Assembly: GCF_017349355.1 (NCBI RefSeq)
Contig: NZ_JAFMPM010000008.1
Coordinates: 310,001-374,000 of the forward strand
Direction of reading: 5' to 3'
DNA: 64,000 nt
Source: Thiothrix fructosivorans
Lineage (GTDB): Bacteria > Pseudomonadota > Gammaproteobacteria > Thiotrichales > Thiotrichaceae
The number at the start of each line of letters is the position of its first letter. Positions within the stretch are counted from its first letter, which is position 1. This document shows positions 6,686 to 50,854 of the stretch, one piece after another. Both the position numbers and the translations under genes were made by a program. Below the pieces are notes generated by a model, which was not told the origin of the DNA, searched no databases, and saw nothing but the letters and a program-made list of their open reading frames with translations.

Positions 6686-7495
6686 TTAGCCAAATAAGCG
6701 CCGTAGCCACGGCTTTTTCGTTGTGGAGGTGGCAGCAAGCCTTCTCAAGTGAAAGGCAGGTGGCGCGTAAACGTCTTCAGGAGCCAGATCATCTAAAATA
6801 GCTTGTGGGCGGTCACGTACCATACGCCACGCTTCAGCTTCATCGCCGAGAATACGTGCCGTTTCTGCTACCGCATCGGTCAGCACAGGAATGCGTGACT
6901 TTGCCTCATGAGCATCTGAGGCAAGAATATGCACATACCCATCCATCAGGAAGCGTTCGCACCAGTTTTTGGCAGAACGACCAAAATGCCCGGTAACAGA
7001 TCCTGCGGTCAGTTGGATCCACGCGCCTAACTTTGCTGCTTCCAGAAATGTTTCGTAATGCCCGTGCAACCAGTGCAACCGCTCTGGATGGGTAATGACT
7101 GGGACATAACCCGCATTAATAAAGTTCTCGATGTGTTCAAGAAAATTCGGCACGGGGACATGATGCGACGGTTCTAGCAGGAAATAGCGTGAGCCATGCA
7201 GCGTGGGGATTGTACCGTGACGCAGGCCAGAGAGCAGCGTCGGTGTGAATTGCACATCCGCCCCAATGACTAAGGTTAGTGGAATACCCGCCTCATTCAG
7301 TACCGTTTGTAAGGCTTCCATCGCCGGACGGATGGTGGCAGTGGTGTTTTCATATACGTTAGGGTATATGTGGGGTGTGCACGCTAAATGCGTTGTGCCG
7401 TCCGCAACTGCAATACGCGCCATCGCGAGCGATGTTTCCATATCTTGCGAGCCGTCACACAGAGCGGGGAGTATATGGCTATGTAAATCAATCAT
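6686..7495 (-). CDS. CpsB/YwqE-type PHP-family tyrosine-protein phosphatase
   Basis: The protein begins MIDLHSHILPALCDGSQD, the metal-binding HxH signature of PHP-family phosphatases. Further metal ligands follow: 'ACTPHIYP', 'PVITHPERL' and 'ILASDAHEAKSR'. CpsB/YwqE enzymes dephosphorylate the tyrosine cluster of BY-kinases, and the matching kinase is encoded two genes downstream. This is the first gene of the export operon; a CRP-type promoter (7640-7682) lies upstream with a predicted 138-base leader. The 269-residue length is normal for the family. Confidence 0.9.
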   Translation of the reverse strand: MIDLHSHILPALCDGSQDMETSLAMARIAVADGTTHLACTPHIYPNVYENTTATIRPAMEALQTVLNEAGIPLTLVIGADVQFTPTLLSGLRHGTIPTLHGSRYFLLEPSHHVPVPNFLEHIENFINAGYVPVITHPERLHWLHGHYETFLEAAKLGAWIQLTAGSVTGHFGRSAKNWCERFLMDGYVHILASDAHEAKSRIPVLTDAVAETARILGDEAEAWRMVRDRPQAILDDLAPEDVYAPPAFHLRRLAATSTTKKPWLRRLFG

Positions 7496-7703: not shown

Positions 7704-9644
7704 TTATGCACAGGCGGCGTAGTTGTTGGTTTGTTCCGTTGGGGTGGGAATGAAGTTATCCGGCATCATGCCACTGTGTTTGAAGCCTTGAACTTGCTGT
7801 TTCAATAAGCGGTGAATGCTGGCTAAGTCGTAGTGTTGGCAAGCCGTATCCAGCTTGTTTAATACGCGCTCAAACTCAGGCCAAGCGGCCGCTTGTTCAT
7901 GGGCTTTGAAGATACGGCTGTGTTGCGTGGCTTTTGATACGCTGCCAATTAGCAATTCTTCATAGAGCTTTTCACCGGGGCGCAGACCGCTGAATTCAAT
8001 ACTGATGTCACCGTAAGGGGAGTGCTCATCGCGCACTTCTAACCCTGAGAGGCGGATCATGCGTTTTGCCATATCCAAGATACGTACCGGTTCACCCATA
8101 TCCAACAGGAAGACATCCCCACCCGTTGCCATAGCCCCCGCTTGAATAACGAGTTGCGCCGCTTCCGGTATGGTCATGAAGTAACGAATAATATCAGGGT
8201 GCGTGACGGTGACTGGTCCACCTGCCTGAATTTGTTTGCGGAAGAGGGGGACGACCGAGCCAGAAGAGCCGAGTACATTGCCAAAGCGTACCATGCCAAA
8301 CGTGGTTTTGCTGGGTAATTGAGCTAGCCCTTGCAATACCAGTTCTGCCATGCGCTTGCTAGCCCCCATGATATTGGTGGGGCGAACGGCTTTATCGGTT
8401 GAGATGAGGGTGAAGTGTTCAACGCCTGCCGCAATGGCTGCTTCAGCGGTGCGCCAAGTGCCAAACACATTGTTGCGGATGCCTTCCACTGGGTTGTGCT
8501 CGACCATCGGTACGTGCTTATACGCGGCTGCATGGTACAAGGTTTGGATATGGTATTGCTTGAGAATACTTTCAACGCGTTGCCGGTCTTGTACCGAGCC
8601 TAATACGGGTATCAACGGTATAGAGCACGGTTCATGACTGGCGAGTTGAATTAACTCTTGTTCAATTTGGTAGAGAGCAAATTCGGATAATTCAAACAGT
8701 ACCAAACAGGTTGGTTGCAGGCGAATAATTTGGCGGCACAGTTCAGAGCCAATTGAGCCACCCGCACCTGTGACCATGACGGCTTTATGGGTGATACAAG
8801 CACTCAACAGCGTGGTATTAGGTAGTACGGGGGGGCGACCGAGTAGGTCATCAATTTCAATATCGCGTAATTCACTGATGGTCTGATTGCCGGAGACCAG
8901 ATCCACGAGGCCGGGGATTGTGCGGACATGGACATCCAGCGGTTCTAAATAATGCAGGATTTCGTTACGTTGCGCCGCACTGGCAGATGGCATAGCCAGC
9001 AAGACTTGTTGAATGTCGTAGGTGTCGATCAGCTCTGGGAGTGCTTCCCGTGCGTGTACGTGGATGCCGTTGATAATGGCTTTTTGCAAGCGTGGGTTAT
9101 CATCCACATAAGCGATGACGTGGTATTCGGGTAGGTTTTCCAGTGTGACTGCCAGTTGTGTGCCTGATTGCCCTGCACCGTAAATGGCGACTTTGATCTG
9201 TGAAGTGTTTTTCTGAAGGGCATAATAGTAGCGTCGCGCCACGTAGCGGCTGCCACCAATCAAGAGGAAGGCTACACCCCAATAAATGGGATAGACGGAA
9301 CGGGGGATGTTGTCCCAATCGAATATAACGCCACAGATGCTGAGCATAATAGTCGATAGCGTCACGCCATAGAACACAGCCATCAGGGCGTGCCCGCTAA
9401 TGAAACGGATGACGGCGCGGTATAAGCCGAGTGCCACGAATACGGGCAGTGTGACCAACGGGGCAGCGAGCAACATCCACACACCATCATGCAGGGTGGG
9501 TTGCCAGTCGCCTAAGCGTAGACAAAAACTGAGCCAAACCGCCAAAGGCAGTAACAGTATATCGGTGCTCAACATGAATAAACGTTTTTGCCAGCGAGGT
9601 AGCGAAAACGGCAAAGAAGCATAACGTTTGGTTGCGCCCATCAT
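7704..9644 (-). CDS. pglF: UDP-GlcNAc 4,6-dehydratase, CapD/WbpM/PglF family
   Basis: The N-terminal third holds four transmembrane segments (KRLFMLSTDILLLPLAVW onwards) and a nucleotide-binding Rossmann unit (VAIYGAGQSG). The C-terminal SDR domain has VTGAGGSIGSELCRQI and the active-site region STDKAVRPTNIMGASKR, where Met replaces the usual Tyr of SDR enzymes, as in WbpM and PglF. These enzymes make UDP-4-keto-6-deoxy-GlcNAc, the first intermediate towards diacetylbacillosamine. The aminotransferase, acetyltransferase and phospho-sugar transferase that would follow lie upstream at 11.3-14.6 kb. The ATG at 9644 was chosen because AGGAAG precedes it; the frame runs on to a TTG at 9689 that has no ribosome site. 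Its leader carries an RfaH-type ops element and a CRP-type promoter. Confidence 0.9.
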   Translation of the reverse strand: MMGATKRYASLPFSLPRWQKRLFMLSTDILLLPLAVWLSFCLRLGDWQPTLHDGVWMLLAAPLVTLPVFVALGLYRAVIRFISGHALMAVFYGVTLSTIMLSICGVIFDWDNIPRSVYPIYWGVAFLLIGGSRYVARRYYYALQKNTSQIKVAIYGAGQSGTQLAVTLENLPEYHVIAYVDDNPRLQKAIINGIHVHAREALPELIDTYDIQQVLLAMPSASAAQRNEILHYLEPLDVHVRTIPGLVDLVSGNQTISELRDIEIDDLLGRPPVLPNTTLLSACITHKAVMVTGAGGSIGSELCRQIIRLQPTCLVLFELSEFALYQIEQELIQLASHEPCSIPLIPVLGSVQDRQRVESILKQYHIQTLYHAAAYKHVPMVEHNPVEGIRNNVFGTWRTAEAAIAAGVEHFTLISTDKAVRPTNIMGASKRMAELVLQGLAQLPSKTTFGMVRFGNVLGSSGSVVPLFRKQIQAGGPVTVTHPDIIRYFMTIPEAAQLVIQAGAMATGGDVFLLDMGEPVRILDMAKRMIRLSGLEVRDEHSPYGDISIEFSGLRPGEKLYEELLIGSVSKATQHSRIFKAHEQAAAWPEFERVLNKLDTACQHYDLASIHRLLKQQVQGFKHSGMMPDNFIPTPTEQTNNYAACA

Positions 9645-9705
9645 CTTTCTTCCTGAAAATTTTGTGCTATTGGATAGGATTTCAGACAAAGCGTAGACCG
9701 TGGCT

Positions 9706-9717
9706 CACGCTACCGCC
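9706..9717 (-). promoter_or_regulatory. RfaH recruitment element (ops) in the capD/pglF leader
   Basis: The minus strand reads GGCGGTAGCGTG, identical to the core ops element of E. coli RfaH-controlled operons, 62 bases before the chosen start codon and about 120 bases after the predicted transcript start. RfaH binds this element on the non-template strand and suppresses polarity in long polysaccharide operons. Confidence 0.75.
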
Positions 9718-9846
9718 CTACATCGTCGTGGATGTTATGGAGGGGGAACGAGCAAAGCTTATAATCTGACCCCTTAGATCGCTTCGTCTTCGAATCATAA
9801 GCCTAGTTTTGTCAGCGGCTCTCCAACAGTTGCTGGAGATAGGGTT

Positions 9847-9889
9847 ATCTTATGGAAAACGCGGTGGATAGGATGTGATTAGGCTCACA
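9847..9889 (-). promoter_or_regulatory. CRP-type class II promoter of capD/pglF (site S3)
   Basis: TGTGATTAGGCTCACA at 9874-9889 is a perfect TGTGA-N6-TCACA palindrome. TAAGAT (9847-9852, minus strand) has the class II spacing. The predicted start is near 9840, before the ops element. Confidence 0.7.
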
Positions 9890-9899
9890 GTATGGGTGT

Positions 9900-10167
9900 T
9901 AAAGTTGACGTGCCTAACTCTGCGGTAGATGTGGCGTACGGCTATTTCTAAATCAACGGATTCCAGTATCAAGGTATTGTCGGCGTAATAGGATTCTAAT
10001 TGCCAGTTGGTACGGCGGCGGTAAACCCGCAAATAGGGCGTTTCCTGCGAAACCATGACGTATTCCAACAGTGAGGGAATTTGTATGTAATTATCGAATT
10101 TTTCTTTCAAGTCAATCCGCTTGGTTGAGCCAGACAGCACTTCGATAATGAGGATGGGAGTTGCTCT
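9900..10167 (-). pseudogene. Uma2-family nuclease fragment
   Basis: The frame reads RATPILIIEVLSGSTKRIDL, then YIQIPSLLEYVMVSQ and PYLRVYRRRTNWQLE, which matches the C-terminal half of Uma2 (PD-(D/E)XK type) proteins. The first 80-90 residues expected of the family are missing. The frame runs on to 9850, past the usual family end, through the S3 promoter, so the tail is probably read-through. It joins directly to a BrnA-like antitoxin relic at about 10167. Both pieces look like decayed mobile or toxin-antitoxin cargo. Confidence 0.65.
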
Positions 10168-10169
10168 CA

Positions 10170-10323
10170 TCCTCCCGTTTGCGGTGCTGGGTGGCATAAT
10201 CCCGCAAATAGAGGTTAATGAGTGTCTGGTAGGGGATGCCCGTTTCTTCAGTCAGTATTCCACGGCATCGTTATCCAAGCGGATGGTGACAGGCTGTTTT
10301 AAGTGCTTGATGGATGGATTCCT
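10170..10323 (-). pseudogene. BrnA-like antitoxin relic (frameshifted)
   Basis: Translation gives KHLKQPVTIRLDNDAVEY followed by a stop at 10252-10254, then in another frame TEETGIPYQTLINLYLRDYA. Joined, these resemble the C-terminal ribbon-helix-helix part of BrnA-type antitoxins, with a few codons lost at the junction. No BrnT toxin is visible nearby. It lies directly after the Rpn stop codon and in the same frame. Confidence 0.6.
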
Positions 10324-47349: not shown

Positions 47350-48219
47350 ATGCCGAAAGCCTTTATCAGTTATGCCTGCGATGGTAGCCACGGTGAAAAC
47401 CTTGCCGCCGAGATTCAGCAGCAGTTGTTGGCGGCTGGCTTTGCCGTGTTCCGCGATGTGATCGGTTTGAAACCGGGCGATGTGTGGTATCACAAACTGG
47501 AATTTGAACTCGAAACCAGCGATGTGATGGTGTTGGTGGTTTCTGAGAAAGTGCGCACGTCGAAGTGGGTGCATAACGAAGTGAGTATGGCGGAGGAAAT
47601 CGGTATTCCGGTGATTCCAGTGCTCGCGGAAAAAGTGCGGTATCCGTTGTGGTTGCGGCATTTGCAGGTGCTGGATTTTTGTGGGGCGGTGGATTGGACG
47701 TTGTTGTTGGGGGCGCTTGGGCATCATGTGGGAAAAACCCTCACCCCCCAGCCCCCTCTCCCAGAGGTAGAGGGGGAGCAAGAAAAAGAGCCAGCGGCTG
47801 AACTTGTTGCAGACCGCTATATCATCCACAACAATGGAACGGTAACGGATACCGTAACTAATCTGATGTGGAAGCGGTGTAGTGAAGGGCAATATGGCGT
47901 AGATTGTAAAGTGGAAGTGCAACGTCATAACTGGAATGACACCATGTCGAAATTCGGCAAAGGGGTAAGTTTTGCAGGTTACAACGATTGGCGCGTGCCG
48001 ACCATCGAAGAGTTGCGAACCCTCGTGGATAATAGTCAGCATCCGACCATTAACTTACAGGCATTTCCGAATACTTTAGCTGATCATTTTTGGTCTTCGT
48101 CTTTTAATGCCGAGAATAGTGCTAACGCATTGAATGTCGATTTCGCTAACGGCTACATCAGAGAGCTTTTTAAGGATTATTATTCCTTTCCGGTACGGTT
48201 AGTGCGTAGCGGACAATGA
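47350..48219 (+). CDS. TIR domain protein with C-terminal DUF1566 (Lcl C-terminal) domain
   Basis: Residues 1-125 form a TIR domain: KAFISYACDGSHGENLAAEI, 'GFAVFRDVIGLKPGDVW', 'LVVSEKVRTSKWVHNEVSMA' with W73 and E77 at the usual W..xE position of NAD-cleaving TIR domains. Residues 155-289 form a DUF1566 domain (TVTDTVTNLMWKRC, 'FAGYNDWRVPTIEELRTLVD', 'HFWSSS', 'FPVRLVRSG'). The linker, residues 128-145, is encoded by a genomic palindromic repeat. Bacterial TIR domains often act in immunity or as NADases; DUF1566 is of unclear role and common in surface or ligand-binding proteins. No known defence genes other than a PIN pair are nearby. No strong ribosome site precedes the ATG. Confidence 0.8.
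   Translation: MPKAFISYACDGSHGENLAAEIQQQLLAAGFAVFRDVIGLKPGDVWYHKLEFELETSDVMVLVVSEKVRTSKWVHNEVSMAEEIGIPVIPVLAEKVRYPLWLRHLQVLDFCGAVDWTLLLGALGHHVGKTLTPQPPLPEVEGEQEKEPAAELVADRYIIHNNGTVTDTVTNLMWKRCSEGQYGVDCKVEVQRHNWNDTMSKFGKGVSFAGYNDWRVPTIEELRTLVDNSQHPTINLQAFPNTLADHFWSSSFNAENSANALNVDFANGYIRELFKDYYSFPVRLVRSGQ
47737..47782. repeat. Palindromic intergenic-type repeat inside the TIR-DUF1566 gene
   Basis: The sequence ACCCTCACCCCCCAGCCCCC continues into an inverted pair CCCCCTCT (47752-47759) and AGAGGGGG (47770-47777). This type of repeat is common between genes in many bacteria and here encodes the proline- and glutamate-rich linker TLTPQPPLPEVEGEQ. Confidence 0.65.
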
Positions 48220-48325: not shown

Positions 48326-48559
48326 ATGTATGCAGTTGAATTTGAAGCCAGTATCAACGATGGAATGTTCAAAATTCCCGAAACATTCCTCAAACTACAG
48401 TCTGTAGCAAAAGCCAAAATCATTATTATGGTGGAAGACGAGGTGACGATGCCCCAAGCGGTGAAGAAGATCGGATTTATCGAACGGCTTGCCAACAATC
48501 CTGTGCATGTAGACAAGTCGCTACAGTTCTTATCCCGTGAGGAAGCGAATGAGCGCTAA
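48326..48559 (+). CDS. Antitoxin-like protein preceding the PIN toxin gene
   Basis: This 77-residue protein (MYAVEFEASINDGMFKIPET.., then 'KAKIIIMVEDEV' and 'FIERLANNPVHVDKSLQFLS') is encoded immediately before, and overlaps by 11 bases, a PIN-domain protein. It has the pattern of small antitoxins whose N terminus forms a beta-strand DNA-binding unit and whose C terminus ('F-x-PLSREE'-like) contacts the toxin. AAGAGG lies 9 bases upstream of the ATG. The pairing with PIN is the main evidence. Confidence 0.72.
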   Translation: MYAVEFEASINDGMFKIPETFLKLQSVAKAKIIIMVEDEVTMPQAVKKIGFIERLANNPVHVDKSLQFLSREEANER

Positions 48560-48962
48560 GGTATTCATTGATTCCAATGTGTTTTTGTACACATTCTCTG
48601 ATAAAGAGCCACTTAAGCACACCATCGCAAAGGCATTGGTATTGGGCGGTAGGCATACGATTTCTGTGCAAGTTATCAATGAAGTCAGCAGTAATTTATT
48701 GAAGAAACTGCGGCAGAGTAATGCTGATGTCCAAGATTTTATCGATGATTGCTACAGCCGTTATCTGATTGAAAATCTCTCTCAAGCCGTTTTTAGTAAG
48801 GGTGTATCGCTCAGGGAGCGCTACAAGTTCTCTTATTACGATTCCATTATTGTGTCATCTGCGCTGCTAAGTGGCTGTCAGGTGCTTTACAGCGAAGACA
48901 TGCAGCACAGTCTGCTTGTCGAAAACCAACTCACCATTATTGATCCATTTGTCCAATGCTAG
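48549..48962 (+). CDS. PIN-domain ribonuclease toxin
   Basis: The protein begins AKVFIDSNVFLYTFSDKEPL with the first catalytic Asp, has Glu in SVQVINEVSSNLL, Asp in FSYYDSIIVSSALLSGC and a further acid in LYSEDMQHS. These four acids define the PIN (VapC-like) nuclease site. The ATG at 48549 has GAGGAAG upstream and overlaps the antitoxin gene, the usual coupled order. It overlaps the following ABC-F gene by 7 bases. Confidence 0.88.
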   Translation: MSAKVFIDSNVFLYTFSDKEPLKHTIAKALVLGGRHTISVQVINEVSSNLLKKLRQSNADVQDFIDDCYSRYLIENLSQAVFSKGVSLRERYKFSYYDSIIVSSALLSGCQVLYSEDMQHSLLVENQLTIIDPFVQC

Positions 48963-50854
48963 TCTTCTCCGACCTAACCCTGCGGCGCGGCTCAAAAGCC
49001 CTGCTCGAATCCGCTTCCTTCAGCATCCATCCCGGTCAGAACGTCGGGGTTACGGGTGCGAACGGAGTCGGCAAATCCACCCTGTTCTCGCTGATTCGTG
49101 GGGAATTGCACCAAGACACGGGCAATTTTTCGATACCGCCCGCGTGGGTGATCGCGCACGTCCAGCAAGAAACGCCCGCTACTGACCAAACCGCACTGCA
49201 TTACGCACTCGAAGGTGACACCGAATACGTCAGCCTACGCCAGCAACTTGAACACGCCGACGGCGCACACCTCGGCGAACTGCACGCCCGCCTCGATGCC
49301 ATCGACGGTTACACCGCTGAAAGCCGCGCTGCCACCTTGCTGCACGGTCTCGGTTTCAAACCCGACCAAATTCACAACCCGGTCAGCAGTTTTTCCGGCG
49401 GCTGGCGGATGCGCCTCAATCTCGCGCAAGCCCTGATGTGCCGTTCAGACCTGCTCCTGCTCGACGAACCCACCAACCACCTTGATCTTGATGCGGTCAT
49501 TTGGGTGCAAGAGTGGCTGAAAAATTATCGTGGCACGCTGCTGCTGATTTCGCATGACCGCGAATTCCTCGACGCGATTTGCACCAATATTGCGCACATC
49601 GAACACAGCCGTCTGACGCTCTACACCGGCAACTATTCGACCTTTGAAATCACCCGTGCGGAAAAACTTGCCCAACAGCAATCGGCTTACGAGAAGCAAA
49701 AGCGCGAACGCGAACACATGCAAAAGTATGTTGACCGTTTCCGCGCCCAAGCCACCAAAGCCCGCCAAGCACAAAGCCGCCTGAAAGCCTTGGAGCGGAT
49801 GCAAGTCATCTCCGCCGCCCACGTCGATTCGCAATTCCACTTCAGCTTCCGCGACCCCGAAAAGTTGCCGGATCGCTTGCTGCATGTGCGCGAAGCGCGC
49901 CTTGGTTACGCTGACAAAACCATCATTGAAAAGGTGGAGTTGCAAATTTTCCCCAGCGACCGCATCGGGTTGATTGGCCCCAACGGTGCGGGTAAATCCA
50001 CCCTGATCAAATTCCTTGCCGGACAACTGCCTGCACAAGCGGGTGAAAGCTGGCAAGCGCCCGACCTCAAAATCGGCTATTTCGCCCAGCACCAGCTCGA
50101 ACAACTCAAGGTCGATCAATCGCCGCTGCAACATTTGCGCGACATGGATAAACAAGCCCGCGAACAAGATTTGCGCAACTTCCTCGGCGGTTTCGCTTTC
50201 CAAGGTACACGGGTGGAAGAGGCGATTGCACCCTTCTCCGGCGGCGAAAAAGCCCGCCTAGCGCTGGCTTTGCTGATCTACCAACGCCCTAATTTGCTGT
50301 TGCTGGATGAACCGACCAACCACCTTGACCTCGATATGCGCCTTGCCCTCAGCATGGCGTTACAGGAATTCAAGGGCGCAATGGTCATCGTCTCGCACGA
50401 CCGCCACATGCTCAAAACCGTCACCGACAAGCTATTACTGGTCGATAGCGGCAAAGCGCTGGAATTCGATGGCGACCTTGACGATTACGCGGCGTGGCTG
50501 CAAAACCGTTTCCGTGCCGAGGAAGCCGCCAGCAAGCCAACCGATCAAGCCGCCGCCGCGCACACCTCCGCCGGACGCAAAGACCAGCGCCGCGAAGCCG
50601 CCGAAAAGCGCAAACAGTTACAGCCCTTAAAGAAAAAGATCGACAAGTTGGAGCAGGAAATGAACAAACTCCAACAACAACAAGCCGCGTTAGAAGCACA
50701 GCTTGCCGACCCCGACATTTACAGCGATGCCAACCGCCACAAGCTCAAGCAACTGGTGCTCGACAAAAGCAACCTCGATGCCAAATTGGAGGAGGTGGAA
50801 ATGGAATGGATGGAGCGTAGCGAAGAATACGACACCGCGATGGCAGAGAATTAA
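48956..50854 (+). CDS. ABC-F family ATPase (YheS-like)
   Basis: The 632-residue soluble protein has two ATPase domains: Walker A GANGVGKSTLFSL and GPNGAGKSTLIKF, signatures 'FSGGWRMRLNLAQAL' and 'FSGGEKARLALALL', Walker B 'LLLLDEPTNHLDLDA' twice. The linker between domains is the charged helix pair characteristic of ABC-F ribosome-associated factors, and the C-terminal coiled coil (KKKIDKLEQEMNKLQQQQAA) resembles YheS. It lacks membrane domains. It probably acts on the ribosome E site. Confidence 0.92.
   Translation: MLVFSDLTLRRGSKALLESASFSIHPGQNVGVTGANGVGKSTLFSLIRGELHQDTGNFSIPPAWVIAHVQQETPATDQTALHYALEGDTEYVSLRQQLEHADGAHLGELHARLDAIDGYTAESRAATLLHGLGFKPDQIHNPVSSFSGGWRMRLNLAQALMCRSDLLLLDEPTNHLDLDAVIWVQEWLKNYRGTLLLISHDREFLDAICTNIAHIEHSRLTLYTGNYSTFEITRAEKLAQQQSAYEKQKREREHMQKYVDRFRAQATKARQAQSRLKALERMQVISAAHVDSQFHFSFRDPEKLPDRLLHVREARLGYADKTIIEKVELQIFPSDRIGLIGPNGAGKSTLIKFLAGQLPAQAGESWQAPDLKIGYFAQHQLEQLKVDQSPLQHLRDMDKQAREQDLRNFLGGFAFQGTRVEEAIAPFSGGEKARLALALLIYQRPNLLLLDEPTNHLDLDMRLALSMALQEFKGAMVIVSHDRHMLKTVTDKLLLVDSGKALEFDGDLDDYAAWLQNRFRAEEAASKPTDQAAAAHTSAGRKDQRREAAEKRKQLQPLKKKIDKLEQEMNKLQQQQAALEAQLADPDIYSDANRHKLKQLVLDKSNLDAKLEEVEMEWMERSEEYDTAMAEN

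Follow-up and report, generated by a model that had tools for sequence, protein, structure and literature searches.

A TIR-Lcl_C protein of Thiothrix fructosivorans is a probable member of an immune-type receptor family with exchangeable lectin sensors

The window, i.e., the whole stretch of 64,000 nucleotides of Thiothrix fructosivorans DNA analysed here, contains a short gene in which a TIR domain is followed by a DUF1566 domain, and the linker between the two is encoded by part of a dispersed palindromic repeat. What kind of protein does such a gene encode, and what is the role of the repeat at the joint? The features to which we refer are located in the window as follows.

47350..48219, + strand: TIR-Lcl_C receptor-like protein, 289 aa (ORF and Pfam)
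47362..47685, + strand: TIR domain, residues 5-112 (Pfam TIR_2; fold match to SARM1)
47566..47580, + strand: W73-VHN-E77, segment at the catalytic position (alignment with SARM1 WVHKE)
47737..47786, + strand: left half of a dispersed palindromic repeat, translated as interdomain linker; the joint where the sensor types of relatives differ
47836..48207, + strand: Lcl_C (DUF1566) sensor of C-type-lectin fold, residues 163-286 (Pfam; structure match 8q4e)
48094..48192, + strand: hypervariable tail, residues 249-281 (where relatives have the DGR variable region)
48956..50854, + strand: ABC-F ATPase gene, the synteny marker of a locus that is orthologous in six genomes

The open reading frame at 47350-48219 (+) begins with ATG and is uninterrupted. 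The initial annotation had read it from the letters as a TIR domain with a W..xE segment joined to DUF1566, and both assignments were borne out by Pfam. TIR_2 matched residues 5-112 well above the cut-off (E 5e-17), and Lcl_C (PF07603), known earlier as DUF1566, matched residues 163-286 with an E of 3e-29 and 102 bits, the gathering score being 34.9. The Glu of the WVHKE segment is the catalytic residue of SARM1. In a profile search against solved structures, W73-V-H-N-E77 of the window protein paired with this segment, so that by this alignment a Glu, whose presence the initial annotation had proposed to check, occupies the catalytic position; confidence in the predicted model is low over the TIR domain. 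The AlphaFold2 model, built from 24 sequences, was of good quality over Lcl_C, whereas over the TIR domain and the linker its quality was moderate to poor. In structural comparison with VIA-align, residues 143-288 matched the C-terminal domain of the Legionella collagen-like protein Lcl (8q4e) with Z 12.4, as well as invasin-type and snake C-type-lectin domains, and residues 1-116, in the low-confidence part of the model, matched the TIR domains of SARM1 and SPARTA with Z ~8 (8.2). A Foldseek search of the model against the PDB gave nothing under E 0.001; the TIR assignment is therefore mainly based on sequence, and our statement on the fold is based on VIA-align and sequence. Legionella Lcl is an extracellular adhesin without a TIR domain. 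The ORF of the window protein opens directly with the TIR domain and no N-terminal signal sequence was seen in it by eye, so its sensor is probably cytoplasmic. Thus the suggestion that a TIR effector had received a "sensor or surface-type" domain can be kept for the effector and the sensor, and a surface-type role is unlikely. Just 3' of the gene (window 48327-48962), a small ORF lacking any Pfam match is followed by a PIN-domain ORF, and the two may form a toxin-antitoxin pair.

The linker sequence at 47737-47786 matches, at 96% identity, the first 50 bases of a near-perfect palindrome 104 bases long, confirming that a common repeat is translated here. Only the left half of the palindrome is retained in the window gene; the full palindrome is present in four orthologous fusions, and the copy in G013, of ~104 bases, folds as a single near-perfect hairpin. 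The repeat is dispersed, with 11 matches in this genome and 11-51 in 13 of 15 congeners (some of these counts being at least the number given), and congeners G005 and G008 had no matches. A second repeat-encoded linker had been proposed within the ABC ATPase of the window, and for this repeat it was not reproduced, since BLAST found no second convincing copy in the window, nor any in the neighbouring ABC-F ORF. Full-length TIR-Lcl_C proteins, 68-81% identical to the window protein, are encoded in G012 (Thiothrix caldifontis), G013, G007 and G002, and all five members of the genus with this fusion carry the repeat in the linker. The search for this layout in other genomes thus returned homologous linkers encoded by the same repeat and not by unrelated DNA. 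With this distribution, the idea that the fusion is recent had to be given up, and so did the idea that the repeat created it: every one of the five fusions carries the repeat, and the TIR-SUMF1 linker of G019, which belongs to another genus, has a diverged and recognisable form of the palindrome, showing that the repeat has long been present at this joint. Parts of the same repeat were also seen inside two ORFs elsewhere in this genome (G000:C5:136000-152000, L070, at 7210-7253 and 8352-8395), where they directly precede SUMF1-type sequence resembling a variable region.

What did stand from the initial annotation is that the repeat at the joint matters for how the protein is assembled. The TIR module also occurs with SUMF1 or other partners, at TIR identities of up to 89-90%; the second copy in this genome, on C6, is a TIR-SUMF1 protein whose TIR is 89% identical to that of the window protein and whose palindrome is reduced to the right edge, GGTTGGGGTGAGGG. 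The ABC-F gene that lies just behind the TIR gene is 78-94% identical across the compared genomes, and upstream of it TIR-Lcl_C is found in four genomes (this one, G012, G013 and G007), TIR-SUMF1 in G014 and a broken SUMF1 reading frame in G005. Homology between the G014 TIR-SUMF1 gene and the TIR-Lcl_C genes spans the TIR and the whole palindrome and ends at the 3' edge of the palindrome, the sequences being unrelated after GGGGTGAGGGAA. TIR identity is 88-94% across sensor types and 83-95% among proteins of the Lcl_C type without G002, so that identity between types matches that within a type. These results showed that two sensor types alternate at one chromosomal place and that their border lies at the repeat. 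In the five fusions, the constant part of Lcl_C is 64-81% identical and the tail only 17-40%. Two further kinds of TIR sequence were noted. In G013 the fusion is preceded upstream by an extra, truncated TIR start (MPKAFISYARDGGHGENLAIE, L023:619); the G013 row of the TIR tree derived from this start and was disregarded. At G001:C1:1186471-1186848 (L028) and G009:C2:4201600-4201977 (L029), a TIR ~90% identical to that of the window protein forms the C-terminal end of a protein whose N-terminal part resembles, by eye, that of translation initiation factor IF-2.

How did one place come to hold two sensors? The two types at the ABC-F locus could have arisen when gene conversion, or transfer between paralogous loci, exchanged the TIR gene as a whole, with the repeat uninvolved. 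The TIR paralogues, at 88-94% identity, are sufficiently alike for gene conversion, and TIR genes do move, because the G002 fusion and the C6 copy occupy loci other than the ABC-F locus; against this, the homology break falls on the 3' edge of the palindrome, though a break at the domain border would be expected anyway. We consider whole-gene replacement a serious possibility, if somewhat improbable. The TIR tree, intended for ordering the swaps, was poorly resolved with support too low for this purpose. We infer instead that the sensor was exchanged at or next to the repeat joint, most plausibly via recombination within the repeat.

The sister proteins also showed the marks of a mutation-making retroelement (DGR). 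The DGR of this genome lies on C5 and comprises a reverse transcriptase (RT) gene (C5:411627) bearing the GLPIGSLTSQ motif, a template beside it and two adjoining SUMF1 targets. The C6 TIR-SUMF1 gene (C6:388388) is a remote target of the C5 template: over 129 nt its tail differs from the template at 20 of 32 adenines and at one of 97 other bases (Fisher p 3e-14). A TIR-SUMF1 gene from a different genome, G015, fits the C5 template as well (18 of 30 adenines changed vs 0 of 96 other bases), and the G014 TIR-SUMF1 gene, which occupies the place orthologous to that of the window gene, fits the template of G005/G002 (11 of 18 adenines vs 1 of 52 others). As judged by this adenine-directed pattern, together with the DGR-type RT in the genome, the TIR-SUMF1 protein encoded on C6 qualifies as a DGR variable protein. 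Lcl_C proteins elsewhere are, by the same kind of reasoning, DGR targets too: G022, from another genus of the same family, has a template reading AVVWSSSPNANNSNNAWNVNFNNGNDNTNNKNNNKQVRLVRSG and an Lcl_C target changed at 20 of 43 adenines and at none of 81 other bases, and in the congener G001 one template serves two Lcl_C target genes. At both Lcl_C DGR loci the RT frame, as assembled, looks broken or truncated; in G001 (G001:C1:1471000-1490000, L175, ~9642-10260) it is seemingly cut short, and an endonuclease-like ORF lies close to it on the opposite strand.

Is the tail of the window copy also rewritten in this way? This tail diverges from its orthologues more than the rest of the protein, and codons ending in C or T (NNY) make up 0.77 of it vs 0.46 elsewhere (p 0.0013), an excess that the DGR targets show too; in the tail of the G013 orthologue the fraction is 0.90. 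A pattern search of the own genome for a template, with ≤3 mismatches, matched only the gene itself, and the same was true when C's were kept fixed; neither this genome nor the four others with the fusion had a non-coding match to an asparagine-rich template peptide. The adenine bias of the window tail against heterologous templates was not significant (p 0.06 and 0.27), and the tail is longer by ~1 codon. Given the lack of a template, the extra codon and the non-significant bias, the window tail is probably an orphan variable region and not a DGR target. The window copy may have been targeted in the past, and this rests on homology and codon pattern because the adenine bias is not significant.

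The tail could be read more simply as an ordinary fast-evolving ligand-binding surface on which a DGR never acted, its likeness to variable regions coming from the shared lectin fold, and the fusion would then be a constitutive sensor of a nutrient, glycan or stress ligand. The missing template and the non-significant bias are what such a surface would give, and the NNY excess is absent from some secreted Lcl_C proteins of this genome, which means that Lcl_C tails are not all products of a DGR. But the window tail does have the excess, and it is larger in the G013 and G002 orthologues. The tails of these two moreover depart from heterologous Lcl_C templates in an adenine-directed manner (p 3e-5 and 6e-5), and a DGR does target the sister TIR protein encoded in this genome. 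Taken together, the two parts of this reading, the ordinary surface and the constitutive sensor, appear unlikely to us.

Lcl_C is joined to possible effectors in other layouts as well, their partner domains being named by eye. A TIR-TM-Lcl_C layout is present in this genome, G001 and G009; a caspase-like domain is joined to Lcl_C in G002, G009 and G012; and proteins of cable bacteria and others combine Lcl_C with parts that are caspase-like, LRR-like or RCC1-like. Such arrangements lend support to a pairing of Lcl_C with effectors. A second TIR-Lcl_C protein of the same genome (G000:C7:179599-179874, L012) belongs to another TIR subfamily, has a probable transmembrane segment and has relatives in G001 and G009. 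In genomes of the cable-bacteria type (L127, L129, L131, L133 and L135), a variable-tailed Lcl_C lies, by eye, C-terminal to a caspase-like part, and the tested Lcl_C tails of these genomes are NNY-rich.

On balance, the window gene likely encodes a TIR immune-type receptor from a family in which exchangeable, DGR-derived lectin sensors, either Lcl_C or SUMF1, are mounted on one TIR module. Ligand binding, NADase activity and a role in defence are predictions modelled on TIR effectors and on the antigen sensors proposed for multicellular bacteria (PMC10907252). A ligand from an invader would be bound at the lectin face, its binding would cluster the TIR domains, and the clustered domains would deplete NAD+ or make a nucleotide signal, upon which the infected filament cell would die or stop growing. 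The sensor tails would derive from DGR variable regions, those of the sister proteins being rewritten by the retroelement at template adenines. The tail of the window copy would no longer be served by a template in this genome, and because of this its specificity would be fixed for now. A more ambitious form, a two-tier adaptive system in which one TIR effector gains different lectin sensors through repeat recombination, the sensors are hypermutated in trans by DGRs, and template-less copies such as the window gene retain a useful fixed specificity as heritable memory, seems to us quite doubtful. Finally, it is very improbable that the gene supplies the TIR component to a Thoeris-type system or to another of the known TIR defences: Pfam ThsB_TIR scored slightly above its cut-off (22.4 vs 21.2 bits) and the PADLOC ThsB and TIR-Argonaute profiles matched, but all these matches are confined to the TIR domain, the NCBIfam Thoeris (ThcB4) and retron-TIR models scored far under their cut-offs, and the PADLOC scan of three neighbours recognised no defence partner and no ThsA.

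DGR-diversified lectin domains have been proposed as antigen sensors of multicellular bacteria from the study of Thiohalocapsa PB-PSB1, which also described the shuffling of domains and, at DGR loci, MITE-like repeats (PMC10907252). Like those sensors, the present proteins belong to multicellular hosts and carry a DGR-rewritten C-terminal lectin fold on effector or signalling domains including TIR. Unlike them, the protein described here has a two-domain TIR-sensor form without an NTPase or vWA part, a single locus combines the one TIR with either SUMF1 or Lcl_C, the linker is a translated repeat, and the window copy has no template. In the available part of a study of cyanobacterial multidomain DGR variable proteins, TIR-like domains are among the N-terminal partners of lectin domains and remote variable proteins are found, as here; these proteins are from a different phylum, and within that part repeat-joint sensor swapping and Lcl_C are not described (PMC7517822). 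The domain name DUF1566 occurs, as a text match, in DGR surveys (PMC6642488, PMC4159848). Our literature text search returned no paper joining "DUF1566" with "TIR domain" and none with both a DGR term and Thiothrix. As compared to SARM1 and bacterial TIR NADases, the window protein shares the TIR family and the WxxxE segment, from which NADase activity is predicted, and has a different regulatory domain. TIR on DGR-diversified lectin proteins is already reported, for Thiohalocapsa (PMC10907252) and, in what is available of PMC7517822, for cyanobacteria; as far as the searched literature goes, the two-domain TIR-sensor form and its Lcl_C version are new, and so are the alternation of sensors at one orthologous place and the translated palindrome at the joint.

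The TIR-Lcl_C protein offers a simple and testable form of the proposed DGR-based bacterial immunity, because effector and diversified sensor lie in one short protein and assays of binding, clustering and NAD+ loss could do without partner proteins. One chromosomal place with two sensors and a translated-repeat joint is a natural record of domain shuffling, which is one of the two sources of variation used by adaptive immune systems, and a sister protein in the same genome bears the marks of the other, targeted hypermutation. Since its relatives carry a different sensor at the same joint, and some of these sensors are rewritten by a mutation-making retroelement, the window gene looks like a member of an adaptable family of bacterial immune receptors.
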